Of a stretch of 32,666 nucleotides of DNA, positions 3,152 to 28,834 are shown piece after piece. Position 1 is the first letter of the stretch. Each line of letters begins with the position of its first letter. Made by a program: the position numbers and the translations under genes. Source of the DNA: Terriglobia bacterium (GTDB lineage Bacteria > Acidobacteriota > Terriglobia > Bryobacterales > Bryobacteraceae); NCBI GenBank assembly GCA_020073115.1, contig JAIQFU010000004.1:25007-57672 (forward strand), in the 5' to 3' direction. Under the pieces are notes generated by a model. It was not told the origin of the DNA. It searched no databases and saw nothing but the letters and a program-made list of their open reading frames with translations.

Positions 3152-3201
3152 GATTCGGAGAAACCTCGATTGCTATTATGCCGCAAAACCGGACAGAACC
3201 A

Positions 3202-3231
3202 CCGGTGGCAAAAATCGACCACCGGCGGTAC
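3202..3231. repeat. GTACCGCC-type hairpin repeat, single arm
   Basis: A 30-nt element with a perfect 7-bp stem, CCGGTGG (3202-3208) and CCACCGG (3219-3225), a 10-nt A-rich loop, and the tail GCGGTAC ending at 3231. The stop codon of the CRTAC1 gene (3232-3234, minus strand) begins at the next base. Related arms lie at 22597-22683 and 23647-23728. Confidence 0.75.
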
Positions 3232-4953
3232 TCAACGGGAGATCATCCCCGAGCCTTCTTTGACCGTCACCAACCTGTTCGCGGGGAGCTTGGGCAGCGT
3301 CTCCTTGACGCCGCTGGGCCAGTGGATCTCCAGGTCGGCGGTTTCGGCGGGGCCCAGGCCGAAGTGCAGGCGAGAGTCGTTGACCGAGTAGAAGCTCGAT
3401 TGCGCCAGGACCTCCTGCGCCTGCGTCTTGCCGCCGTAGCGCGCGATCACCCGCGCGCCGATGGCGCTGCGGTTCGATTTCACCCCGACGAGCTTCACCT
3501 TGAGCCAGTGGTTCGTCCCATCGACGTCGTTGCGCAGCAGAGAAGGCGGCTCGTTCAGGTTGACGATCAGCGCGTCGAGGTCGCCGTCGTTATCGAAATC
3601 GCCGAAGGCGCAGCCGCGGCTGCAATGCGGCGCGGCGATGGCCGGGCCGGCAGTCTCGATCAGCTCTTCGAAATGGCCGTTGCCCAGGTTGCGGAAGATC
3701 ACCCGCGGCGTTTTCAGGGGGTACTGCGGCAGCCTGGCTTCGATCTCCGGGTAAACGCTGCCGGTGACCTGGAAGAGGTCGGGATAGCCATCGTTATCCA
3801 GATCCACCATGCCCGCCCCCCAGCCGGTGAAGCGCGTCTCCACGCCAAGGCCGCTGACGACGGTCACGTCGTCGAACATGGCATGGCCGTCGTTGCGGTA
3901 GAGAATGCTGGTGTCCTCGGAGAAGTGGGTCTTGAAGATATCGAGATGGCCGTCGAGGTTGAAATCGCCGATGCCGAGACCCATGCCGGCCTGCTCCATG
4001 CCGTCTTCGTTCAGCGCCACGCCGGCTTCGAGCCCGATATCGGTGAAGGTTCCGTCGTGGTTGTTGCGCAGAAGGAAGCTGGGGGTGGAATCGCAGGCCA
4101 CGTAAAGGTCGGGCCAGCCGTCGTTGTTGAAGTCGGCGGCGACGGCGGTCATCATGTAACTGCCCTTGGCCTGGAGCACGCCGGAGGCGGCGGTGACGTC
4201 GCTGAACGTGCCGTCGCCGTTGTTGTGGAACAGGAGCGGCGTCTCGGGAGGCAGGCCGCGCGGACCGCAGTTCACGGGGATCCCCTTCCAGTTGCAGTTG
4301 GCGTTGGCGCCCGGCCTGGTGGCGGATTCCAGGTCGAACTTCAGGTAATTGGCGACGAACAGATCCAGTCGCCCGTCGCGATCGTAATCCACCCACGTGC
4401 AGCCCGAACCCCAGCGCGCCGGGCGCAGCAGGCCGGCCTCTTTGGTGACGTCGGTGAACGTGCCGTCGCCGTTATTGCGGTAGAGCGCGTTCTGGCCCCA
4501 GTAGGTGACGAAGAGGTCTTCGAAGCCGTCGTTGTTGTAGTCGCCCACGGTCACGGCGGAGGCCCAGCCGGTACGGCGCAAGCCGGCCTTTTCGGTAACG
4601 TCGGTGAATGTGCCGTCGCGGTTGTTCTTATAAAGACGGTTGGTGGCGCCGGGGGCGCCCTCAAAGCGCGTGCCGCCGAGGAGGAAGATATCCAGCCAGC
4701 CGTCGTTATCGTAGTCGAAGAAGGCCGCGCCGCAGCCCACGGTTTCGAGGATGAAGTTCTTGTGATCCGCGGGGCCATAGAAAACCGGCGCGCGCAACCC
4801 GGCGGTGTCCGCGATATCGGTGAACCGCGCGTGAAAGGGCAGGCCGGAGGGCTTCCCGCGCGGCGTGGGAACCGCCTTGCGCGTGGCCACGCCCTGGCCG
4901 TAGGCGCGCAGGGCGGGAAGAAGCAGCAGGCGGGAGAGGTCGCGTCGGGTCAC
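3232..4953 (-). CDS. CRTAC1-family protein (FG-GAP/VCBS repeats plus ASPIC/UnbV domain)
   Basis: 573 residues from a GTG start. The N-terminus TRRDLSRLLLLPAL resembles a short Tat or Sec export signal. Residues about 45-460 hold a series of FG-GAP/VCBS blades, each with a calcium-binding loop such as FFDYDNDGWLDIF, VGDYNNDGFEDLF, WVDYDRDGRLDLF, AADFNNDGWPDLY and FGDFDNDGDLDAL, often preceded by 'NNGDGTFTDVT'. The last 90 or so residues (NHWLKVKLVG...LHFGLGPAE...IHWPSG) are a typical ASPIC/UnbV domain. Such proteins form integrin-like beta-propellers exposed outside the cytoplasm; biochemical roles are mostly unknown. The gene runs away from the TonB receptor to its right and stops directly against a hairpin repeat. 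A paralogue lies at 23733-25388. Confidence 0.9.
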   Translation of the reverse strand: MTRRDLSRLLLLPALRAYGQGVATRKAVPTPRGKPSGLPFHARFTDIADTAGLRAPVFYGPADHKNFILETVGCGAAFFDYDNDGWLDIFLLGGTRFEGAPGATNRLYKNNRDGTFTDVTEKAGLRRTGWASAVTVGDYNNDGFEDLFVTYWGQNALYRNNGDGTFTDVTKEAGLLRPARWGSGCTWVDYDRDGRLDLFVANYLKFDLESATRPGANANCNWKGIPVNCGPRGLPPETPLLFHNNGDGTFSDVTAASGVLQAKGSYMMTAVAADFNNDGWPDLYVACDSTPSFLLRNNHDGTFTDIGLEAGVALNEDGMEQAGMGLGIGDFNLDGHLDIFKTHFSEDTSILYRNDGHAMFDDVTVVSGLGVETRFTGWGAGMVDLDNDGYPDLFQVTGSVYPEIEARLPQYPLKTPRVIFRNLGNGHFEELIETAGPAIAAPHCSRGCAFGDFDNDGDLDALIVNLNEPPSLLRNDVDGTNHWLKVKLVGVKSNRSAIGARVIARYGGKTQAQEVLAQSSFYSVNDSRLHFGLGPAETADLEIHWPSGVKETLPKLPANRLVTVKEGSGMISR

Positions 4954-5141: not shown

Positions 5142-8100
5142 ATGGGTTACACGCGCCAGAGTCTGTTCGCAGCGGTTCTAGCAGCCGCCGCATTGTTATT
5201 CACTTCCGCCGGGTTCGCGCAGATCGATACCGGCGCTATTGTCGGGACCGTTCACGATTCCACCGGGGCCGCCGTTCCGCACGCCGCGGTCACGGCCACC
5301 AACACAGCCACGGAGGAAAAGCGGAGCACGCTGACCAACGACGCCGGCGAGTATCTGTTCGGCGCTCTCCGGCCGGGTACGTACAACGTCGAAGTCAGCG
5401 CGCCGGGATTCACCAAGCAGGTTCAGAACGAAATCGATATCCACGTGCAATCGCGTCCTTCCGTGGACTTCACGCTGAAAGTCGGCGAGGTCACGGAAAC
5501 CGTGGAGGTGACCTCCGCCGCGCCGCTGCTGCAGACGCAGACCGCGGATGTGGGCGGCGTGATGCCGTCGCAGCAGATCGTCGATCTCCCGCTGAACGGG
5601 CGGCGCTACGCCGACCTGGCGCTGCTGGAGGCGGGAGTTCAGAGGAACCTGACGAACCAGAACAACACCGCGCCGGACCGCATCAGCTCGAACGGCAATC
5701 TCGACACGCAGAACTACTTCTCGCTGGACGGCATCGATAACAATTCCGGGTCCACCAACTTGCAGGAGGGCTCGGTGCAAACGGTGCAGCCGCCGCCGGA
5801 CGCGCTGCAGGAGTTCCGGGTGCAGACGCGCACCTATTCAGCCGAGTTCGGGACCTCGGCGGGGGCGGTGATCAACGCCGCGCTGAAGAGCGGCACCAAC
5901 GGGTTCCATGGCGATGTCTGGGAATTCCTCCGGAACAGCAAGCTGGACGCGAACTCGTTCTTCAACAACTCCGGCGGGGTGGGCCGCGGCCGTTTCAGCC
6001 AGAACCAGTTCGGCGGCACGATCGGCGGGCCCATCGTCAAGAACAAGACTTTCTTCTTCTTCGACTACCAGGATTTCATCAGCCGTAAAGCCACCACCGT
6101 GTTCTCCACGGTCCCCACGCCGCTGATGAAGCAGGGCAACTTCAGCGAGTTGAAGAACGCATTGCCGCAATCCTCCGTGCCGAGCCAGGCGGGGTGCATC
6201 AGCGGGAACGTAATCTCCGCATCGTGCATCGATCCGGTGGGCGCGAACCTGCTGGGCCTGTTCCCCGCCCCGAATACTCCCGCGGCGCTGGCCGTGCTGG
6301 GGCAGCCGGGGAGTTTCACGGGCGCCCCCAACTACCAGTTCCAATACTCGGTCCCGAACAACACGTATAACCTCGACACGCGGATCGACCATACCCTGAC
6401 GACCAACAACCGGATCTACGGCCACTTCAGCATGGACCACATCGCCCGGCAGGACCCGCCTTGGACCAGCAACCCGCTGGCGGGCAACGGGAACTTCGCG
6501 ACGCAGTATCGCATTCACGGCTACTCCGCGGCGCTGGCCTGGACCGATATGGTCACGCCGTCGCTACTGAACGAGCTGCGGGGCGGGTTCAACCGCGACT
6601 TCGCGCACAGCGATCCCATCGGCCTGCAACTGGGACAATCGACGGCGGCCACTTATGGACTTACGGGCATCCCGTCCAGCCCGAATGCGGCGGGCATTCC
6701 GCCCATCAATATCTCGGGAATGACGCGCCTCGGATCGTCCCCGTGGAGGCCGCAGTTCCAGGTGGCGCAAGTCTGGCAACTGCTGGACACCTTGAGCTGG
6801 CTGAAGGGCAGCCACAGCTTCAAGTTCGGCTACGAGCACAGGCGCACCAGCGACAACTTCCTGGATATCCAATCGCCGCAGGGCCAGATCACGGCCAGCG
6901 GCATCTACACCGGCAACAACGGTCTGGGGGTTCCCGACTTCCTGCTCGGCGATGTGAGCACGGCCCAGTTCACAACCCCGACCGTGGCTCACAATTACCA
7001 GGACGCGAACAACTTCTTCGCCATGGACACGTGGCGGGCGACGCAGAACCTGACCCTGACCTACGGGCTGCGCTACGAGCTGTTCACGCCGGTTTTGAAC
7101 CATCAGAACGCGATGGCCAATTTCACCCCGGCCAACGGCGGCGGGTTCGTGCTGGCTACCGACGGCGACCTGTACCAGCGGGCGCTGATTCACCCCGACC
7201 GCAACGACTTCGCCCCGCGCTTCGGCTTCAGCTACCAACCCACGGAGAAACTGGTGCTGCGCGGCGGCTACGGCATCTTCTACCAGCATGCGTACCGCAT
7301 CGGCTCGGAAAGCATGCTGGCGCTCAACCCGCCATTCGTGATTGACGGCTCGCTCTCGCAGTCATTCCCCAGCACAACGCCCGTGTTTCAACTACGGAAC
7401 GGTTTCCCATCGAGCGAGTTCACGCCCGCGCTCGTAGATCTGACGAAGCTGCAGGTGCGCGCGCAGGATCCCAACGAACGAACCCCGTATGTCAGCCAGG
7501 TGAGCTTCGGACCGCAGTTCGAGATTTCGCGGAGCACGGTGCTCGACGTATCGTACGTAGGCAACTTCGGGCGTAAGATGATCCGGCTGCGCAATGCCAA
7601 CCAGGGGCTGGTGGTCGGTTATGACGCGTCGGGAAAACCGATGACCGCGTTCCCGTACGCCAACCTCAACAGCAACCTGAACAGCCTGGCCGGCAATCAC
7701 GCCTTCCTGGAACTGGCGACGGCGGACGGCAACACCAACTACAACGGCCTGCTGGTGAGCCTTCGGAAGCGGTTCTCCAAGGGCTTGGCCTACGGCCTGA
7801 GCTACACCTGGAGCCACAACATCTCGGATTACGTGGACAATTTGACTGGCGGCGCTACCCCGGCGAACGCGTACGACTACAGCCTGGAGCGGGGCAACTC
7901 GCCGTTCGACGTACGGCACCGTTTCGTGGGCTACGGGACCTGGAATCTGCCCATCGGCAAGGGCGGCGCCATTCTGAACAACAACTCCGTAGCCAGCCGC
8001 GTGATCGGCGGGTGGCAGGTGAACGCCATCGTGACGCTGGAAACCGGGACGCCTTTCTCGGTCACCGCGCCGGACGTGAGCGCTACCGGCGGGAACCATG

Positions 8101-19297: not shown

Positions 19298-19398
19298 AGC
19301 TTCCCCTCCCGGTGATGAGGACATCATAGCGCCGGGGAGCGGGCCGATACCGCGAGTTTGATTACGAACGAAGGGAGAGGTCGGTGGCCTGTCCCACG

Positions 19399-20241
19399 CT
19401 ACGCCTGATCGTACCCGCCCAGCCGCCGGATCCAGATGTTCCGGTAGCGTACCGGGTTGTTGTGGTACTGCAGCATGAGCGAGTCTTCCGGGGGGTGGGG
19501 CGTGTAGTGCGCCGCCTGCCGGTAGACCATGGGACCGAACGACTCCTTGCGGTTGTGGACCACCACGCCGTTGTAGAAGACGGTGAAGTACGCAGGTTTG
19601 CTGAGCTTTTCCCCATCGAACTTCGGCGCCTCGAAGACGATATCGTAGGCGTTCCACTCGCCCGCCCGGCGGGCCGGCGTCACCAGCGGGGGCCACTGGC
19701 CGTAGATGCCGCCGGCCCCGCCGTCCGCGTAGGTGACGTTGTCCCACATATCGAGAACCTGGATCTCGTAGCGGGTCATCAGCAGCACGCCGCTGTTGCC
19801 GCGGCCCTGGCTGTTCCCGGTGACGGGGACCGGGGAAGTCCATTCGACGTGGAGTTGGACGTCGCCGAACTTTTCGCGGGTGAGCAGATCGCCATTTCCC
19901 GGGGTCACCTCGAACCAGCCGTCGCCGACTTTCCAGGCTGCGTCCACTACGGCGTTGCGATTGGCGCCGCGGCCGCGGTGACACCACTTGGAGAGGTCCT
20001 TGCCGTCGAACAGGACCATGGCGTCGGACGGCGCGCCGCCGGGCGCAGCCGCCGGCGTGATCTGTTTAGGGTGCGGCCGGTCCGGGTCGTGCACGTGCCA
20101 AGAAAGACCGCCCGGCTCCATGGGGGTATCTTTGAAACCGAGGTCGGGATTGACCTGTTGGCTCGCCTCTTGAGCGCGCGAAACGGCGGCTCCGCCAAGG
20201 GCGGCGGCCGCGGAGAGTTTGAGAAAATCCTGGCGGGTCAT
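19399..20241 (-). CDS. DUF1080 (3-keto-disaccharide hydrolase-like) protein, exported
   Basis: 280 residues. The start at 20241 is chosen for its export signal (TRQDFLKLSAAAALGGAAVS), Tat-like in shape although it lacks a full RR pair. Residues about 70-275 form a DUF1080 concanavalin-like beta-sandwich: FDGKDLSKW, WKVGDGWFEVTPGNGDLLTR, FGDVQLHVEW, GRGNSGVLLMTRYEIQVLD, AGEWNAYDIVF and the terminal RYRNIWIRRL are all hallmark segments. Some members hydrolyse 3-keto-glycosides; many are uncharacterised carbohydrate-binding proteins. The stretch between the signal and the domain is Pro/Ala-rich. It diverges from the propeller-TPR gene at 20374, and the shared upstream region holds a hairpin chain. 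Confidence 0.88.
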   Translation of the reverse strand: MTRQDFLKLSAAAALGGAAVSRAQEASQQVNPDLGFKDTPMEPGGLSWHVHDPDRPHPKQITPAAAPGGAPSDAMVLFDGKDLSKWCHRGRGANRNAVVDAAWKVGDGWFEVTPGNGDLLTREKFGDVQLHVEWTSPVPVTGNSQGRGNSGVLLMTRYEIQVLDMWDNVTYADGGAGGIYGQWPPLVTPARRAGEWNAYDIVFEAPKFDGEKLSKPAYFTVFYNGVVVHNRKESFGPMVYRQAAHYTPHPPEDSLMLQYHNNPVRYRNIWIRRLGGYDQA

Positions 20242-20253
20242 AAACGACTGATT

Positions 20254-20337
20254 GTACCGCCACGTGGCGTGAACATTCGTGTTCGCCGCGTCGGCCGGAT
20301 GTCGGCAAGACTGCCGGCACGGCGGGCAGAAATGCCC
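20254..20337. repeat. Three-hairpin chain with TTCG, AAGACT and GAAA loops
   Basis: Hairpins in order: GAACA (20271-20275) TTCG TGTTC (20280-20284) with an outer GGC/GCC; GTCGGC (20301-20306) AAGACT GCCGGC (20313-20318, one G-U pair); GGGCA (20324-20328) GAAA TGCCC (20333-20337). The chain starts with GTACCGCC (20254-20261), the end sequence of the other repeat family. Bases 20261-20293 match 32369-32401 with two differences. It lies in the divergent promoter region of the DUF1080 and propeller-TPR genes. Confidence 0.7.
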
Positions 20338-20358
20338 ACTCTCGACTTTCGCCTGGGA

Positions 20359-20364
20359 TATAAT
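20359..20364 (+). promoter_or_regulatory. Candidate -10 box 9 nt before a GTG start
   Basis: A perfect TATAAT ends 9 nt before the GTG at 20374. A transcript starting at the usual distance would have a leader of only a few bases, so the mRNA could be nearly leaderless. No clear -35 is visible, and the 17-nt upstream position falls at the edge of the hairpin chain. Confidence 0.4.
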
Positions 20365-20373
20365 CAGCAACAC

Positions 20374-22593
20374 GTGAAACTGGGCGCGTGGAGCGCGCTG
20401 CTCGTCGCGCAGCTCGCTGCGGCGCAGTCACCGCCGGCCATCTTCATCGATTATCCGGAAGAGAGTTCGATCTTCCCGCCCGATTTCGCCGCTCCCACTT
20501 TTCTGTGGCGCGACGCGCAACCCGGCTCCACGATGTGGCGCATCGAGATCGAGTTCAGCGACGGCGCGCCCGCGATCCGTCGAATATCAAAAGGCGAACC
20601 GATGCGCGTTGGCGAGATCGACCCGCGCACGACGGCCCCGACGAACGAACTCCCCAGGCTCACGCCGCAGCAAGCCGCGGCCCATACATGGAAGCCGGAC
20701 GCAGCCGCCTGGGCGGAGATGAAGCGGCATCCGGCCACGATTACCATTGCCGGGATGCCGGGCGGGGCGTCGGCGCGGGTGCGCATTTCGACATCCGGGG
20801 ATCCGGTGGGCGCGCCGATTTTTTATCGCGACGTACCGTTGATGCCCTCGGAGCTGGAAAAGGGCGTCATCAAACCGATTGTGCCCTCGGCCGTCCCGCT
20901 GATCACGTGGCGGCTGCGCAATGTGGCGGACAGCGAAAGCCGCCTGTTGATGGACGGCCTGCCCACCTGCGCCAACTGCCATTCCTTCTCGCGCGACGGA
21001 AAATGGCTGGCGATGGATGTGGATGGGCCGCAGAACGACAAGGGCATGTACGCCATCGCCGCCATCGCTCCGCGCATGGCCATCCGCAACGAGGACGTCT
21101 TCACCTGGAACGATTTCCCCGGCAGGCCGCCGGGCAAACGCACCATCGGGTTCATGGCGCAGGTCTCGCCTGATGGCGCATACGCCGTTACCACGGTCAA
21201 CGAAGACGTTTTCGTCGCCAACTTCAAGGATTACCGGTTCCTCCAGGTCTTCTACCCCACGCGCGGTATCCTGGCGTGGTACAGCCGTTCCACAAGTCGC
21301 ATCCGCGCGCTCCCCGGGGCGGACAATCCGGCCTTCGTACAGACCAACGGCGTGTGGACGCCCGATGGAAAATACGTGGTCTTCTCGCGCGCGGTGGCGA
21401 AGGACGCGTATCCGCCCGGCCGCGAGATGGCCCGGTACGCGGGAGATCCCTTTGAGCCGCGGATTCAGTACGATCTCTATCGCATCCCTTTCAATGGCGG
21501 CAAGGGTGGGCGGCCCCGACCGATTGCGGGGGCCTCGAGAAACGGCATGAGCAATTCGTTTCCGAAGGTATCGCCCGACGGACGCTGGATCGTTTTCGTC
21601 GAGTCCCGCAACGGCCAGTTGATGCGCCCCGATGGTCGGCTTTATATCGTCCCGGCGGAAGGCGGCGCGGCCCGCCGGATGCGCTGCAATACGCCGCTCA
21701 TGAATTCCTGGCACAGCTTTTCTCCCAACGGCCGCTGGCTGGTGTTTTCATCCAAGAGCGGCTCGCCGTACACCCAGATGTTCCTCACGCACATCGACGA
21801 GGAGGGGAACGACAGCCCCGCGATTCTCATTGAAAACGCCACGGCCGCGAACCGCGCGGTGAACCTTCCGGAATTCGTCAACATCGCGGTGGACGGGCTG
21901 CAGCGCATCGATGTCCCCGCGGCCGAGTTCTACCGGCTGTTCGACCGCGCGTGCGAGTTGGCCGAAAAGGGCGAGTTCGAAGCGTCGATCGCCGAGTGGA
22001 ATCAAGCTCTCGCGATCAGTCCGGATGACGCCAAAGCCCACAACAACCTGGGCCGCGCGCTCGCCGGCCAAGGCGACTTTGAGAGGGCCATCGTCCATTG
22101 GCAGAGGGCGATCGAGATCAATCCACGCTATTGGGAGGCCCACAACAATCTGGGCGTGGGATTAGGCAGCAAAGGCAAGGTCAACGAGGCAATCGCACAG
22201 TTCCAACTGGCCCTGGAAGCGAACCCGAATTCCGCCGCGACACAGGGCAACCTGGCCCGCGCGCTGGCGATGAATGGCAAGTCGGACCATGCGATCGCGC
22301 ACTGGCGCAAGGCCATCGAACTGGCTCCCGAATACGTCGAGGCCTACAACGACCTGGGAACCGAATTGCTGCGCCGGGGCAGGACGGATGAAGCCCTGGC
22401 GGCGTGGCAGAAGGCGACAGAGGTGAACCCGTCGTTCGCGCCGGCGTACTTCAACCTGGGGAATGCGCTTGCCGCGCGGGGGAGGACGGAGGGGGCGTTG
22501 GCGGCGTGGCGGCGGGGACTGGAGTTGGCGAGCGGGCAAGGGAATCGGGAATTGGCGTCCGCGATTCAGCAACGGATTGCAGGCTTTCGGTAG
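20374..22593 (+). CDS. PD40 beta-propeller/TPR protein with CxxCH motif
   Basis: 739 residues from GTG 20374, chosen because a signal peptide follows directly (VKLGAWSALLVAQLAAAQ); upstream sequence in frame is antisense to the neighbouring gene. Residues about 20-190 are beta-rich with no domain I recognise. C199-A-N-C202-H203 is a c-type haem attachment motif at the head of the first propeller blade (CHSFSRDGKWLAMDVDG). PD40 blades continue to about 510 (VSPDGAYAVTTV, WTPDGKYVVFSRA, VSPDGRWIVFVES, FSPNGRWLVFSS). Residues about 518-739 hold around six TPRs (e.g. AKAHNNLGRALAGQGDFERA), a protein-protein interaction scaffold. A periplasmic redox or sensing role is possible, but the Cys pair could also bind metal or form a disulphide. 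A palindromic repeat starts 3 nt after the stop. Confidence 0.87.
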   Translation: MKLGAWSALLVAQLAAAQSPPAIFIDYPEESSIFPPDFAAPTFLWRDAQPGSTMWRIEIEFSDGAPAIRRISKGEPMRVGEIDPRTTAPTNELPRLTPQQAAAHTWKPDAAAWAEMKRHPATITIAGMPGGASARVRISTSGDPVGAPIFYRDVPLMPSELEKGVIKPIVPSAVPLITWRLRNVADSESRLLMDGLPTCANCHSFSRDGKWLAMDVDGPQNDKGMYAIAAIAPRMAIRNEDVFTWNDFPGRPPGKRTIGFMAQVSPDGAYAVTTVNEDVFVANFKDYRFLQVFYPTRGILAWYSRSTSRIRALPGADNPAFVQTNGVWTPDGKYVVFSRAVAKDAYPPGREMARYAGDPFEPRIQYDLYRIPFNGGKGGRPRPIAGASRNGMSNSFPKVSPDGRWIVFVESRNGQLMRPDGRLYIVPAEGGAARRMRCNTPLMNSWHSFSPNGRWLVFSSKSGSPYTQMFLTHIDEEGNDSPAILIENATAANRAVNLPEFVNIAVDGLQRIDVPAAEFYRLFDRACELAEKGEFEASIAEWNQALAISPDDAKAHNNLGRALAGQGDFERAIVHWQRAIEINPRYWEAHNNLGVGLGSKGKVNEAIAQFQLALEANPNSAATQGNLARALAMNGKSDHAIAHWRKAIELAPEYVEAYNDLGTELLRRGRTDEALAAWQKATEVNPSFAPAYFNLGNALAARGRTEGALAAWRRGLELASGQGNRELASAIQQRIAGFR

Positions 22594-22596
22594 CGA

Positions 22597-22683
22597 GTAC
22601 CGCCGGCGGCCGGTTTTCGCCATCAGTTGGTTTTGGGTTGAAGCTTCAAACAACCGGTGACAAAAGGCGATCACCGGCGGTAC
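22597..22683. repeat. Full palindromic element with GTACCGCC ends
   Basis: An 87-nt imperfect palindrome between two TPR genes. The left arm starts GTACCGCCGGCGG and the right arm ends ACCGGCGGTAC, with a central perfect palindrome TTGAAGCTTCAA (22638-22649). The right arm contains its own perfect 7-bp hairpin, CCGGTGA (22654-22660) and TCACCGG (22671-22677), with a 10-nt loop. The left arm has a decayed version of the same inner stem. Confidence 0.75.
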
Positions 22684-22706: not shown

Positions 22707-23684
22707 ATGTTGGCGTGGTTTTCCTGGCTTTTGCTCTTCGCGCCGCAGACCAACCCGGACGCGATGCCGCGGCTGAAGGAATGTTCGGCGGCCCTGGAAC
22801 GCAATCTCGCTCAGGACGCGGTGAAGGCCTGTAAAACAGCGGTGGGCATCGACCCGCAATCGGCGGCCGCCCACATGCTGCTGGGGCAGGCGTACCTGGA
22901 GCTGCGGTCGGCCAGTATGATCGCGGAGGCCAAAGCCGAGCTCCAGCAGGCCCTCGACCTCGATTCCGGCCTGGTGTGGGCCCGCTTTTACCTGGCCAAG
23001 ATCTACCTGGACACGGGCCGCCCCGACAAGGCGAAAGCCGAGTTGGAAGAGGCGTTGCGGGCGCGCCCCGGGGTTTCGCATTTCCTCTCGCTGTTGGGGG
23101 AGGCCGAGCGCAAGTCGGGACATCCCGAGAGGGCTCTGGAACTGCACCGCCAGGCGCTGGCCGCGGATCCGAAGATGAACACGGTGCACTATTACGCCGC
23201 GCTCGCTTACATGGACCTGAAGAAAGACGAAGAGGCCATCGCGGAATTGGAGGCATCCATCCAATCTCCGTACGTAGCCCCGGAGCTCTATCTGACCTTG
23301 GGTTCGCTCTATGCGCAGCGGAAACGGTACCGGGAGGCGGAGGCCGTCTGCCGCAAGGCCATTGCTCTCGACTCCACGCGGTCGGAAGCCTGGCTCAACC
23401 TGGCGCAGCTTTTCAACGCGCAGGGCCAGAGCGACCAGGCCCTGGCCGCGCTGCGCCAAGCTCTCCCGCCCGGCAAAACGTTTCCGACCTCGCCCTATTA
23501 CCAGCAACTGCAGGCGGACCTCTATTTCGAACTCGGCCGGGCCTATGCCGGCAAGAGCGCGCGACAGGAGGCTATCCAGGCGTTTGAGCAGTGCCTCTCG
23601 CTCGATTCGAACCGCGTTGAGGCGCGGAAGCGGCTGGAGGAACTCCGTACCGCGGGCGGCCGGCTTCTGCCGCCGGTTCATTGA
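22707..23684 (+). CDS. Exported TPR-repeat protein
   Basis: 325 residues from ATG 22707. A short hydrophobic N-terminus (MLAWFSWLLLFA) looks like a signal peptide or anchor. From about 20 to 310 there are eight or so tetratricopeptide repeats with the usual W/L-G-Y-A-A pattern (AAAHMLLGQAYLELRSASMI, PELYLTLGSLYAQRKRYREA, SEAWLNLAQLFNAQGQSDQA, ADLYFELGRAYAGKSARQEA). It should act as a scaffold in the periplasm, possibly together with the CRTAC1 lipoprotein encoded convergently next to it; TPR and ASPIC/UnbV genes are commonly neighbours in this phylum (general impression). The last 12 codons (RTAGGRLLPPVH) and the stop lie inside the arm of a palindromic repeat, so the C-terminus is probably repeat-derived. 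Confidence 0.87.
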   Translation: MLAWFSWLLLFAPQTNPDAMPRLKECSAALERNLAQDAVKACKTAVGIDPQSAAAHMLLGQAYLELRSASMIAEAKAELQQALDLDSGLVWARFYLAKIYLDTGRPDKAKAELEEALRARPGVSHFLSLLGEAERKSGHPERALELHRQALAADPKMNTVHYYAALAYMDLKKDEEAIAELEASIQSPYVAPELYLTLGSLYAQRKRYREAEAVCRKAIALDSTRSEAWLNLAQLFNAQGQSDQALAALRQALPPGKTFPTSPYYQQLQADLYFELGRAYAGKSARQEAIQAFEQCLSLDSNRVEARKRLEELRTAGGRLLPPVH

Positions 23685-23728
23685 ACGGGGACCCAAAAGA
23701 GCCGGCGAAAGCCGACCGCCGGCGGTAC
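23647..23728. repeat. Second palindromic element, half inside a coding region
   Basis: An 82-nt palindrome. The left arm begins GTACCGCGGGCGGCCGGCTT (23647 onward) and the right arm is its near reverse complement, ending CGCCGGCGGTAC at 23728. An inner stem in the right arm pairs CCGGCG (23702-23707) with CGCCGG (23717-23722). The left arm encodes the end of the TPR protein; the right arm ends 4 nt before the stop of the convergent CRTAC1 gene. Confidence 0.7.
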
Positions 23729-23732
23729 TGGA

Positions 23733-25388
23733 TCACCTGGCGTTCGCTTCGTCCAGTTCGAGAATCTGATCGGCCTTCACATTCTCCAGCGTCTGCTTCT
23801 TTCCCAAGGGCCACTCGATCTCCAGGCGCGCCGCCGCTTCCTCTTTGCCGAGCCCGACGTACAGCCGCATATCGCTGGTGCTCAGATAGCTCCCGTAGGG
23901 ATTGATCTCGCGATATTGCGTGACGCCCCCGGCGGTGACGCGCACCTTCGAACCCAGGCCGAAGCGGTTGCTCTCGCGGCCGCGCGCCTTGATGGCCAGC
24001 CAGTGGTTGCGGTTGCCGCCTTCGTTGCGGTAAAGCATTGCAGTTCCGCCGCAATCGGCGATCACGATATCCAGGTCGCCGTCGTTATCGATGTCGCCAA
24101 CGGCGGCGCCGCGGCCCACGTGCTTGATGCGGAACGCGGGCCCGCTTTCGGCCGAAACGTCCTTGAAGCGGCCGCCGCCGATATTCTCGTAGAGCAGGTC
24201 GCTCTGCTTGTAAGCGAGTTGCGGATCGTACAGCTCCACGTTGTCCGTCACGTGGCCGTTGGAACAGAAAATATCCAGGTCGCCATCGCTATCGTAATCG
24301 AAGAGCTTGGAGCCAAAGGCCAGGGTCAGGAATCCGGATTCCAGGCCGGCCTGGATGGTCACGTCCTTGAATATCAGCTTCCCGAGATTGCGGAAGAGAG
24401 TGTTGTATTCGCGGGAGAACGCCGTGAGGAAAACATCGGGGAGCCCGTCGCCGTCAAAGTCGGCGATCTCGACGGCCATGCCGGCCATAGCCTTCCCGTT
24501 CGTATCAAAGCCCGTGCCGGCGGTGTAGGTGATGTCCTGGAACGCGCCGTCGCGCTTGTTGTGGTACAGGAAATTGCGGACGCCGTCGTTGGTGACGAAG
24601 ATGTCGGGCCAGCCATCGAGATCGATGTCGCCGACCGCGACGCCCAGCCCCTTTCCCGCGCGGTTTGAGACGCCCGCCTTGACGGAGACGTCGGTGAAGC
24701 TTCCATCGCGATTGTTATGGAACAGTTGCGCCGGCACGCCGTCGAATTGCTGCGGATCGCAGTACATGCGGTAGCCTTCCTGTTTGTAGCCGCAGTAGGG
24801 GGCGTTCTTGATGTCGTAATCCAGGTAGCGCACCACGAAGAGATCCAGAAACCCGTCGCGATCGTAGTCCAGCCAGGCGGCGCTGCTGCTCCATCCTGCG
24901 CCCGACACGCCCGCCCTGGCGGTGACGTCGGTGAACGTTCCATCGCCGTTGTTATGGAAAAGCTGGCGGGAATTGTAGCCGGTGACGAAGAGATCGAGGT
25001 AGCCGTCGTTGTCGTAGTCGGCCACGGTCGCGCCGGTCGCAAACATGCCGTTGCCGGCCACGCCGGCTTTACCAGTGATGTCCTCGAACTTGCCGTTCCC
25101 CAGGTTGCGAAAAAGAGCGTTGCCGGGCGAGGGCTTGCCGTGCGCAAGGTCGGCCCCGTTGGCGAAGAAGATGTCAGTGAAACCGTCGTTGTCGTAATCG
25201 ATAAAGGCCACGCCGGAGCCAAAAGTCTCCGGCATCAGTTTTTCCTTCGAAGCGCCATTTTCGTGTTTGAACGCCATCCCCAGTTCGCGCGCGACGTTTA
25301 CGAATTGCACGCGCGGCTCCGAAGAGGTGGCGCAGGAAAGCGCGAACCCGAGAAGCAGCGACGCCGGGATGCCGGGGCCCTTGGACAT
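23733..25388 (-). CDS. CRTAC1-family lipoprotein (FG-GAP/VCBS repeats plus ASPIC/UnbV domain)
   Basis: 551 residues from ATG 25388. The N-terminus (SLLLGFALSC) ends in a lipobox-like ALSC with Cys19, so it is probably a lipoprotein. FG-GAP/VCBS blades fill about 30-455, each with a D-x-D-N-D-G-x-x-D calcium loop (FIDYDNDGFTDIFF, VADYDNDGYLDLFV, WLDYDRDGFLDLFV, VGDIDLDGWPDIFV, IADFDGDGLPDVFL, FDYDSDGDLDIFCS). The last 90 residues (NHWLAIKARG...LYVGLGKEE...IEWPLGKK) are the ASPIC/UnbV domain. It is a paralogue of the protein at 3232-4953 but differs in anchoring (lipoprotein instead of Tat/Sec-like signal). It lies downstream of the TonB-receptor gene on the same strand but is separated by a terminator, so it probably has its own promoter in the short gap; none is obvious. 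Confidence 0.9.
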   Translation of the reverse strand: MSKGPGIPASLLLGFALSCATSSEPRVQFVNVARELGMAFKHENGASKEKLMPETFGSGVAFIDYDNDGFTDIFFANGADLAHGKPSPGNALFRNLGNGKFEDITGKAGVAGNGMFATGATVADYDNDGYLDLFVTGYNSRQLFHNNGDGTFTDVTARAGVSGAGWSSSAAWLDYDRDGFLDLFVVRYLDYDIKNAPYCGYKQEGYRMYCDPQQFDGVPAQLFHNNRDGSFTDVSVKAGVSNRAGKGLGVAVGDIDLDGWPDIFVTNDGVRNFLYHNKRDGAFQDITYTAGTGFDTNGKAMAGMAVEIADFDGDGLPDVFLTAFSREYNTLFRNLGKLIFKDVTIQAGLESGFLTLAFGSKLFDYDSDGDLDIFCSNGHVTDNVELYDPQLAYKQSDLLYENIGGGRFKDVSAESGPAFRIKHVGRGAAVGDIDNDGDLDIVIADCGGTAMLYRNEGGNRNHWLAIKARGRESNRFGLGSKVRVTAGGVTQYREINPYGSYLSTSDMRLYVGLGKEEAAARLEIEWPLGKKQTLENVKADQILELDEANAR

Positions 25389-25458: not shown

Positions 25459-28400
25459 CTACCACTCGATGCGGAATTTGAGATCGACCTGGCGATAGCC
25501 CTGCTTTTCCGGCTCGTAGTTCGGCCTCGTGGAGGTGAACATGCCGGGATTCGGATTCGAGATGTTGGTGTTGATGCTCGCGAAATGCGGATGGTTGAAC
25601 AGGTTCGAAAACGCTCCGGTGAGCGTGAACCGCAGGCGCTCGGTGATGCGAAACTGCTTGGCCACGCTAAGGTGCTGGACGGCGATGCCGTAGCCCTGCA
25701 GGCAGTTGGGGCTGGCGTCGCCGAAGCGGCCCTTGGGCGGCGGGGCGAAGGCAGCGGCGTTGAACCAGGAGGTGATGGTCCGGTTGAAATTGTCGTACGG
25801 GCTGCCGATCGCATCGGGCAGGCCGCCGGATGTGTTCGTGCCCGAAGGGTCGGACCCGGAGAACGAGGGCGAGACGTACGTGGGCGTGGCGAAGGTCGAG
25901 ACGAACTGCGCCGTCCATCCGCCGAGCACGGTGTCGATCACGGCGGGAGCGCTGGACAGGAAGCGCTGCTGCCTGCCGACCGGCAGTTGCCAGGTCCCGC
26001 TGGTGACCCAGTACCAATCGCGGTTGGAGCCGTCGCGCGCCCACTGGTTGGGATTGTAGGGATTCTCCAGGTTGGCCCAGTTGTACAAGTTCTTCGACCA
26101 GGTGACGTTGGAGTTGAACGTGAACGCGCCCATGCGCTTACGGATTTCCGCTTGCAGCGAGTTGTAACGGACCTCCCCGTTGTCGCCAAACACATTGACC
26201 GAGGTGAACAGGTTGTAGGGCCGCATCGACTGCGTGAAGGTGGCGGTGCTCGGCTGCGGCTTGTCCATGTTGTACGTGCCGTAGGCAAGCCCGCTATTGC
26301 GCATCCCGATATAGGAGAGGCGGAGTCCGAGATTGTGGACTTCGCGCTCGATGGTGAAGTTGATCTGGCGCACCGTGCCGATTTTGGTGTCGAGCGGCAG
26401 AGCGGTCACGCCCTGGCTCGGAACTGTCGCCGCGGAAAGACTGGACGGGAACGGGTTCGGCAACGTGAAAAGCGGCCCTGTCGTGCTCGAGATCACCTGG
26501 TTGTAGGTCTCTGACAATTGGAAGGGGGAAGCGCCCGGCCGCCGCGCGGTATAGCTCCAGCTATCCGTATACTCGCCGTAGCCGCCGCGAACCACCATGT
26601 TGCTGCCGATGCGGTACGCCGCCGAAATCCGGGGATGCAGATTGTGCAGGGGCACGTTTGGCACAACCTGCCCGGTGGTAATGGGGATGTTCTTGGGATA
26701 CAGCGCATTGACCTTGGATAGCGCCGCCTGGGAGACCACCACGTTTCCGGTCTTCAGATCGAAGTTGTACATCAGCCCGTCGTCATAGGTCGTGATGCCG
26801 TAATAGTCCCAGCGCAGCCCGTAATCGAGCGTCAGGTTCGGAGTCACCTTGAAAGTGTCGGCGATGAACAAGCCGGCCTGAATGTCATGGCTGTTGCGGT
26901 TGGTGATGGGGTCGAGCCTGGTGGCCGTGTAGGGAACCCCCAGGAGGAAATCGGCGAACCCGACGCCGGTGATGGACCCGTTGAAATTGAAGTCTCCATA
27001 GGTCCCTGCCGGGATGCTGCCGGAAAACCACCAGTAACGGCGAATCTCACCGCCGAACCTCAGCACGTGCTTCCCCTTGTTCCAGGTCAGCGTTTCGGTG
27101 TACGTGTTGGCGCCGTCGTCGTTCATGGCGTAATTGTTGGCGCCGTCCGAGTTATAGAGGGTGCTGAGGCCGTTCACCGTCATTCGCGGGAAGCCCATCG
27201 TATGGTAGCCCTTGGGGTTGACGCCTTGCAGGCCAATGGCCTTCACAACGTCATCGCCGAAGAGTGGAACGATGCCCTTCTCGTCTTCGCCATACAGAAA
27301 GTGATCGGTCTGGTGGCCGAAGGTGAAGATGTTGACCAGCGTGGGAGTAAACACGTGCGTATCGGAAGCAACCAACTGCCGGTGATCGCGCGCCTGGGTG
27401 TAGACGGCGTTGTCGAATCCGTTCCCGGGCCGGATGTAAGGCGTCTTGCGACGCATCCACCGCACATACATGCTGTTCTTGCTGGTGACGTTGTGGTCGA
27501 TGCGGAAGAACGGCCAGTCGCCCTTATAGAGGTCCGAGTTATACGGAAAATACCAGCCGTAGTTGTTGGTGAAGGTGTTGGGGCCGCCCTGGTTCGGCTT
27601 GGGATAGTACAAGTCCATCACCTTCTGCGAGACGCTGCTCCACCGATTGGAGGGGACTTGCTTCAGCGGGAACGCTGCGTTGCCGTTGAACGGGTCCTTG
27701 ATCACGGCGACGGTGGTGAACTGGCTGAAATCGCCGGCGCGCATTTGCAGCGTGGGGGTGCTGCGGTTCGTCCAGGAGCCGAGCGGGATCGCCTGGTGGA
27801 CCCAGCCAAAGTAGAAGAAGGTCCGGTTCTTGATAATCGGCCCGGTGACGTCGGCGTCGGCCTCGTGCAGAATGTACGGCGTCTTATACGGCGTGAAGAA
27901 CTCCCGCGCGTTGAGCGCCGCGTTCTCGTGCTTGTAGTATGCGGACGCGTGCCAGTCGTTGGCGCCACGCTTGGAGATCATGTTGAAACTGGTGGCGCGC
28001 GCCATGTCGGTGCCGGTGCTCACTTCGTTGACCTGCACGGTCTCGAAAAACGCCGGGTTGTCGAGCTGGTCCCCGGTGGTGTCGTTCGCGACCCCGTCCA
28101 TGGCCCAGGTCTGCTTATTCCGGTCGGTGACTCCCGACATAACCAGGTTCCAGCCATTGCCTTGGATCCCGGGCATCGTGGTCATCAGGGCCAGCGGAGA
28201 AGGGTAGACGTCAACCAGCGGCCGGTCCAGGAACTTCCTCTTGTCCAATTCCCCCGAAATAGCGCTGGTTTCGGTCTGAATCAGCGCCGCGCCGGCTTCC
28301 ACGGTGACCGTTTCGGCCGTCGTACCGACCTGAAGCGCCACGTCGATGCGCCGGGTCTGGCCGGCGTCCAGCAGGACGTCTTCCGCCACATAGTTGCGAA

Positions 28401-28656
28401 ATCCGGCCTTGTCCACCTTGATTTTATAGCGGCCGGGCTTCAGGCCCGGGGCTTCGTAGTTGCCGTTATCGTCGGTCGCAAGGGTGCGCGCCGCGATATT
28501 GGTGCCTAGTTCTTCCACCACTACCTGCGCGTTGGGCACAACTAACCCGCTGGGGTCTGTGACGGTACCGCGAAGGGTGACGCGATCAGTCTGTGCCAGG
28601 AGAATACCTGAGACAAACGCAAAGGGAAGGATGAGCCGAATCAAACCTCGAAGCAC
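25459..28656 (-). CDS. TonB-dependent receptor, Oar-like, with N-terminal carboxypeptidase-regulatory domain
   Basis: 1065 residues from a GTG start (28656) with a clear ribosome binding site (GGAGGTT, about 8 nt upstream). The signal peptide ends FVSGILLAQ. A CarboxypepD_reg domain follows at about 25-105 (VTLRGTVTDPSGLVVPNAQV, GNYEAPGLKPGRYKIKVDKA), then the plug-like region (LALMTTMPGIQG, WAMDGVANDTTGDQ) and the barrel, which contains the segment GPIIKNRTFFYFGW shared with the other receptor and ends with VDLKFRIEW. It is an outer-membrane receptor of the same class as 5142-8483 but clearly divergent. The enolase-superfamily gene lies upstream on the same strand, 186 nt away, so the receptor might serve uptake for that pathway (inference). 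Confidence 0.92.
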   Translation of the reverse strand: MLRGLIRLILPFAFVSGILLAQTDRVTLRGTVTDPSGLVVPNAQVVVEELGTNIAARTLATDDNGNYEAPGLKPGRYKIKVDKAGFRNYVAEDVLLDAGQTRRIDVALQVGTTAETVTVEAGAALIQTETSAISGELDKRKFLDRPLVDVYPSPLALMTTMPGIQGNGWNLVMSGVTDRNKQTWAMDGVANDTTGDQLDNPAFFETVQVNEVSTGTDMARATSFNMISKRGANDWHASAYYKHENAALNAREFFTPYKTPYILHEADADVTGPIIKNRTFFYFGWVHQAIPLGSWTNRSTPTLQMRAGDFSQFTTVAVIKDPFNGNAAFPLKQVPSNRWSSVSQKVMDLYYPKPNQGGPNTFTNNYGWYFPYNSDLYKGDWPFFRIDHNVTSKNSMYVRWMRRKTPYIRPGNGFDNAVYTQARDHRQLVASDTHVFTPTLVNIFTFGHQTDHFLYGEDEKGIVPLFGDDVVKAIGLQGVNPKGYHTMGFPRMTVNGLSTLYNSDGANNYAMNDDGANTYTETLTWNKGKHVLRFGGEIRRYWWFSGSIPAGTYGDFNFNGSITGVGFADFLLGVPYTATRLDPITNRNSHDIQAGLFIADTFKVTPNLTLDYGLRWDYYGITTYDDGLMYNFDLKTGNVVVSQAALSKVNALYPKNIPITTGQVVPNVPLHNLHPRISAAYRIGSNMVVRGGYGEYTDSWSYTARRPGASPFQLSETYNQVISSTTGPLFTLPNPFPSSLSAATVPSQGVTALPLDTKIGTVRQINFTIEREVHNLGLRLSYIGMRNSGLAYGTYNMDKPQPSTATFTQSMRPYNLFTSVNVFGDNGEVRYNSLQAEIRKRMGAFTFNSNVTWSKNLYNWANLENPYNPNQWARDGSNRDWYWVTSGTWQLPVGRQQRFLSSAPAVIDTVLGGWTAQFVSTFATPTYVSPSFSGSDPSGTNTSGGLPDAIGSPYDNFNRTITSWFNAAAFAPPPKGRFGDASPNCLQGYGIAVQHLSVAKQFRITERLRFTLTGAFSNLFNHPHFASINTNISNPNPGMFTSTRPNYEPEKQGYRQVDLKFRIEW

Positions 28657-28716: not shown

Positions 28717-28750
28717 ATCCGACCGAAGTCGGATGTCGACCGAAGTCGGA
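28717..28750. repeat. Tandem CGAA-loop hairpins
   Basis: ATCCGAC (28717-28723) CGAA GTCGGAT (28728-28734) is a perfect hairpin. The word GACCGAAGTCGGAT recurs 17 nt later (28738-28751), giving a second, weaker hairpin. It lies upstream of the TonB-receptor gene. Confidence 0.6.
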
Positions 28751-28780
28751 TCAATTCGGAATAGAGGAGGAGTCGGCGTT

Positions 28781-28834
28781 GTGGGGCGGGCCTCGCTGGC
28801 CGCTTTTCAAAGGCAGCCGGGAAGCCCGCCCCAC
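28781..28834. repeat. 54-nt hairpin after the enolase-superfamily gene
   Basis: GTGGGGCGGGC (28781-28791) pairs perfectly with GCCCGCCCCAC (28824-28834), with an inner stem CTGGC (28796-28800) and GCCGG (28816-28820). It begins 8 nt after the stop of the minus-strand enolase-superfamily gene. No T-run follows on the minus strand, so it may protect the mRNA 3' end or slow polymerase rather than terminate classically. Confidence 0.65.

Follow-up and report, generated by a model that had tools for sequence, protein, structure and literature searches.

A GTAC-tagged REPIN family placed just past stop codons, beside a tyrosine-less RAYT gene, in a Bryobacteraceae genome

The palindromes found at gene ends in the window, by which we mean the whole 32,666-nt stretch of DNA analysed here, belong to a high-copy family of REPs, mostly paired as REPINs, which very probably represent non-autonomous, single-strand-hairpin mobile elements formerly moved by a linked Y1/HUH RAYT (TnpA_REP). 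Copies would have settled mainly in a narrow permissive strip just past stop codons, sparing genes and ribosome-binding sites, where the hairpin and T-tract could serve as a two-way terminator or 3'-end hairpin, and movement may have stopped once the linked RAYT lost its tyrosine. In kind, the system is a known one, that of REP/REPIN-RAYT; as far as we searched among openly licensed papers, what is new is the GTAC tag, the matching GA flank, the tyrosine-less RAYT next to its copies and, for an acidobacterium, the strong stop adjacency. REP tags in the literature are GTAG/GTGG, CGTC and CnGA.

Results

Copy number and distribution of the family

The 7.19-Mb, 683-contig host genome contains 194 (103 + 91) exact matches to the 16-mer arm end, as compared with 3 (1 + 2) for the reversed control, so that the few copies noticed at the outset are drawn from a large family. 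Finer counts (doublets, flanks and stops) refer to 361 kb sampled around copies in the host genome, hereafter the sample, in which we identified 77 inverted doublets, with a length mode of 81-88 bp, and 31 single arms. The copies are many and mainly extragenic, with approximately 12 arms in the sample having a gene that reads into the element. Among the genomes searched, the family is specific to the host species, with 0-2 matches in any one of the other 236 genomes from the taxonomic family: the 16-mer search did not find it in three congeners, and it is effectively missing from the 233 further genomes (0-2 matches apiece). The congeners feature instead hundreds of matches to GTGGGRCRGRC (548 in genome G003 versus 44 in the control); the host sample has only 9 matches to this pattern.

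Copies in the window

Allowing up to 2 mismatches, the 16-mer arm pattern matched the window five times against 0.69 expected, a number reached in none of 100 shuffles, and Rfam gave no match. The related arms reported in the preliminary description are present at 22597-22683, at 23647-23728 and 3' of the gene at 3232-4953 (Table 1), and its distances of 0, 3 and 4 nt to the respective stop codons are correct. Its inverted pairs stand for REPINs A and B, while REP C is a single arm rather than a pair; as a further correction, the REPIN B left arm starts with GTACCGCG and lies inside the TPR-repeat gene.

Table 1. Positions of the family's copies in the window and of the genes beside them
Feature	Position	Strand	Description
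REPIN A	22597..22683	.	inverted REP doublet, 87 bp; arm-pattern matches 22597-22612 (+), 22668-22683 (-)
REPIN B	23647..23728	.	inverted REP doublet, 82 bp, between convergent genes; arm-pattern matches
REP C	3193..3231	-	single arm; exact arm match 3216-3231
PD40/TPR-repeat gene	19384..22593	+	ORF, Pfam TPR and PD40; ends 3 nt before REPIN A
TPR-repeat gene	22708..23684	+	ORF, Pfam; first in-frame ATG 22708, caller start 22731
FG-GAP / ASPIC-UnbV gene	23733..25388	-	ORF, Pfam; end 4 nt from REPIN B
FG-GAP / ASPIC-UnbV gene	3232..4953	-	ORF, Pfam; end at REP C

The three copies differ in how they adjoin their genes. REPIN A follows the stop codon of the PD40/TPR-repeat gene, and its left arm no longer has its own stem. 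In REPIN B the left arm (23647-23684) encodes the C-terminus of the TPR protein, roughly 12 residues, together with its stop codon (23682-23684), giving stop distances of -38 for this gene and 4 nt between the right arm and the FG-GAP / ASPIC-UnbV gene; the doublet has a DNA fold z of about -5 and is terminator-like on the minus strand. In REP C the GTAC directly abuts the TGA stop codon, and the arm folds as RNA at -23 kcal/mol (z -5.5). Octamers of GTACCGCC at 20254 and 30108 were considered as extra copies and rejected, as the longer arm pattern is unmatched there. Two other repeats were observed in the window: a 54-bp inverted pair at 28781-28834, bounded by GTGGGGCGGGC and similar to the GTGG-tagged REPs, which abound in the congeners and are rare in the host, and, at 28720-28760, GACCGAAGTCGGAT in tandem repeat upstream of the minus-strand gene at 25459-28656.

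Arm anatomy

The consensus arm reads GTAC-CG-CCGGTGG-TCGGTTTTTG-CCACCGG-TTSTTTT and thus comprises a GTAC tag, a 7-bp stem, a 10-nt loop TCGnTTTTTG and a T-rich tract. Stem positions 7-13 pair with 24-30 in 88-96% of arms, and covariation is found at two pairs, T11-A26 changing to C11-G26 in 13 arms (p 2e-7) and G13-C24 to A13-T24 in 4 arms (p 1e-6), with both p values being optimistic because the arms have common ancestry. Tag, stem and fixed loop bases are nearly invariant among the analysed arms, which were chosen for similarity. The consensus arm folds by itself and arms are also found singly, two inverted arms forming a REPIN of ~85 bp.

As imperfect palindromes in the 20-50-nt range with a conserved tetranucleotide at the 5' foot, extragenic and multicopy, arranged in inverted doublets and linked to a RAYT with flanking elements, the repeats have the features of REPs and REPINs. 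The tag, however, is not the canonical GTAG or GTGG: GTAC is found in 155 of 183 arms and GTAG in 3. We take GTAC as a tag variant rather than as grounds for exclusion, since reviews describe the REP tag as 'most often GTAG' and other tags are on record.

A GTGG-tagged REP in genome G023, from the same taxonomic family, has another stem, yet carries the loop TCGnTTTTTG at equal distance from its tag, as would be the case with related transposases that recognise tag and loop. Doublets of this REP at L201, L212, L213 and L218-L221 have common flanks (agctgcgtggtgaga ... gaggggcacgaaatc) and, given this shared flanking sequence, lie inside a larger repeated unit.

The linked RAYT gene

Among 10 matches to PF01797 in the genome, repeats adjoin just one, at 5350-5892 of locus L080 (G000:C538), where REPINs are found at 5255-5340, 5863-5937 and 6677-6764. 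The preliminary description had proposed looking for a RAYT-type transposase, and this gene is one, bordered by the family's own elements. It probably starts 9 nt past the first REPIN and ends inside the second, with the third ~0.7 kb further. The product matches NF047646 (REP-associated tyrosine transposase) with E 8e-19 and 68 bits, under the curated cut-off of 80; PF01797 with 31 bits, above the cut-off of 23; and the E. coli TnpA_REP structure 4er8 with E 1.4e-4. It carries the HUH motif of the Y1_Tnp family (MPNHVHL).

Alignment of positions 5788-5830 with the relatives' homologues reveals that HVH is kept, that the catalytic Tyr is replaced by Cys and that the following NP (2 residues) is deleted, leaving the frame open. 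The class 2 motif Y---NP, present in nearly all complete homologues from relatives, is thus absent. From its sequence we consider the gene to be a RAYT by descent and not a working RAYT; with catalytic Tyr and NP missing it cannot be the present mobiliser, and the family may therefore no longer move. No second close RAYT copy was found in the host assembly. The REPIN system is thus likely dead, with a working RAYT being possible in the unassembled part of the genome or in other strains. RAYTs ~50% identical to the L080 protein occur in many relatives, where they are flanked by hairpins, many of them GTGG-tagged, and the nearest named records with related genes belong to Solibacteraceae and Bryobacteraceae. 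As a separate observation, genome G023 contains 16 matches to the L080 RAYT subfamily, which is unusually many, as such a gene is normally single-copy.

The tag and its preceding dinucleotide

The base before the GTAC tag is A in 64% of 183 arms, and the dinucleotide is GA in 33% versus a background of 7.8% (4.3-fold). In two congeners, CA precedes 23% of the GTGG-tagged REPs (4.3-fold; 4.6-fold and 4.1-fold separately), with GA at background. Comparison of the GA and CA counts between GTAC and GTGG gives a Fisher p of 7e-7, or 3e-5 when stop-abutting arms are omitted, in both cases from copies that are not independent. GA as a part of the element itself was rejected, as its occurrences at a doublet's two ends are statistically independent.

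For one TnpA_REP in vitro, tag bases T2 and 4 choose the cleavage dinucleotide: CA for GTAG, and GA or GT for an engineered GTAC (PMC8266576). The natural GTAC/GA and GTGG/CA families fit this guide rule. The tag would then act as a guide that pairs with the cleavage or target dinucleotide, T2 with A and base 4 with C or G, and a change of tag base 4 would have shifted the insertion dinucleotide from CA to GA. GT, the other site predicted for GTAC, is not enriched before the tag in the 183 arms. The GTGG-tagged family of G023 departs from the rule, with 11 GA and 5 CA among 54 flanks that are partly redundant copies inside larger repeats.

Placement at stop codons

Because initial gene calls ran across REPINs and fused neighbouring genes (18 'inside' cases), calling was redone using a codon-usage caller with the elements masked. 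Of 112 arms facing a gene's 3' end, 80 start -1 to 9 nt from the stop codon, compared with 6 of the 50 facing a 5' end. Placement is thus not random with respect to stop codons: among doublets with both neighbours, 47 of 61 have a facing stop at -1 to 9 nt, compared with 33.7 +/- 2.2 (maximum 41 in 10,000) upon random re-placement of the 61 doublets within their own residual gaps. The preliminary description had named two outcomes that would count against it, a handful of copies or random placement, and neither is observed. Elements in tandem pairs lie a median of 2 nt from the stop codon and 20 nt from the start that follows. Stop adjacency is weaker in the congeners' GTGG family (12 of 48 3'-facing arms).

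Most orthologues in the congeners stop no more than a few residues from the corresponding position, so the stop codons are native, and we rejected the idea that REPINs created them. At locus C67, the element separates the stop codon from a purine-rich stretch ahead of the next start; in two congeners this gap is shorter than 20 nt. The site illustrates the permissive-strip reading. Comparison with the congeners, which are too diverged between genes, resolved no empty sites at base level, so the insertion itself was not seen.

Terminator-like features

Read from the gene, the first arm presents a GC-rich hairpin immediately followed by a T-tract, the sequence signature of an intrinsic terminator, and a simple terminator scan was positive at 49 of 78 REPIN-bearing gene ends in the sample, which represent one sequence copied many times rather than 49 independent events, versus 5 of 155 REPIN-free ends. 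Given the latter number, the lineage seems to use few intrinsic terminators. Convergent junctions are over-represented (23/53 versus 20/131), and in tandem pairs the T-tract is better in the stop-facing arm (paired p 0.03). Terminator-like arms make up 47 of 76 stop-facing and 30 of 59 start-facing arms (p 0.22), core mismatches are equal, and single arms in tandem gaps have no clear orientation bias; a signal of selection for terminator orientation is weak or absent. On these sequence features, bidirectional termination at stop-facing copies is plausible. A ribosome-stalling role is equally open, such stalling having been reported for stop-proximal E. coli REPs in work cited in PMC12306157.

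Discussion

The possibility that GC-rich palindromes came to be alike by chance, for which nothing speaks except the GC-rich host, is close to negligible in view of the 194 matches against 3 in the control and of the 181 matches here against 0-2 in relatives. Inverted ends, a length of ~85 bp and high copy number would also suit a MITE with terminal inverted repeats and a DDE transposase as mover, yet 76 doublets display no target-site duplication beyond chance (in 73, flanking direct repeats amount to 0 or 1 nt), the arms fold independently and exist singly, and the copy-flanked gene encodes a Y1 transposase, all of which makes such an origin highly improbable.

As for the placement, the preliminary description had proposed either insertion targeted to 3' ends or selection for a transcript-end function. 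Homing to stop codons, with the GTAC guide directing insertion to TGA, would account for the GA before the tag and for the TGA before 14 of the 20 exactly abutting arms. Nevertheless, stop usage next to REPINs (29 TGA, 26 TAG, 12 TAA) equals that of all genes (129, 102 and 48), most stop-near arms lie 1-9 nt off, and the 20 exact abutments compare with 17.6 from the A preference alone. Since stop usage matches the background, TGA recognition fails to explain the placement; homing is very improbable, and stop codon recognition as such is disfavoured. A function-first reading, according to which two-way intrinsic termination or a role as mRNA 3'-end hairpin is what keeps copies at stops, those elsewhere being lost, overlaps the preferred one and makes selection rather than tolerance the main factor. 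The hairpin and T-tract of the stop-facing arm with the excess of positive terminator scans, the surplus of convergent junctions, the better stop-facing T-tract in tandem pairs and the far weaker stop adjacency of the congeners' GTGG family all favour it. On the other hand, stop-facing arms are not clearly better kept, single arms in tandem gaps lack a clear orientation bias, and the scan-positive ends are copies of one sequence. We therefore regard this reading as a serious if unlikely alternative, and the evidence for selection on the terminator-like arm as weak.

A bolder, and in our estimate rather unlikely, elaboration of the mobile-element reading would be that a tag change from GT[AG]G to GTAC retargeted the family from CA to GA, and that it spread to gene ends in a near-terminator-free genome, where its copies are now two-way terminators kept after the death of the transposase. 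If true, a mobile element would have become a dispersed regulatory part, and the stop-hugging, terminator-like copies provide a test of whether REPINs turn into 3'-end regulatory parts. Site choice by TnpA_REP is still open, the guide model having held in vitro for one REPtron only (PMC8266576); families of one genus that differ naturally in tag, and correspondingly in flank, give it evolutionary support.

Comparison with known systems

The REP/REPIN-RAYT systems (REPtrons) of E. coli, Pseudomonas and Stenotrophomonas (PMC2817692, PMC3116915, PMC8266576) share with the host family the short imperfect palindrome that begins 5' with a conserved tetranucleotide, the inverted doublets, the hundreds of extragenic copies and a linked HUH/Y1 RAYT gene, present once and bordered on either side by elements. 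Stop-codon proximity has likewise been described for E. coli REPs (PMC12306157). The host family differs in its GTAC rather than GTAG/GTGG tag, the GA before the tag, the 10-nt loop TCGnTTTTTG and the lack of the catalytic Tyr in the linked RAYT, and its stop adjacency is much tighter than that of the congeners' GTGG family.

Two further systems come from the same bacterial group. The TIRYT/TIRtron elements of Acidobacteria (Di Nocera 2013, PMC3733652) likewise comprise tyrosine-transposase genes with inverted-repeat flanks, which form moderate repeat families, but their repeats are unrelated to GTAG REPs according to PMC3733652, whereas those of the host are tagged, looped hairpin REPs of very high copy number; we set the two apart by description. 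The Class 3 TnpA_Y1 of Solibacter usitatus (PMC6006769) is similarly linked to high-copy hairpins, with ~600 CnGA-tagged copies. It carries a Y----Q motif, in contrast to the homologues of the host RAYT, which have Y---NP, the motif of class 2, together with a GTGG or GTAC tag and come nearest, by motif, to the YIxNNP of subclass 2.4 (PMC6006769).
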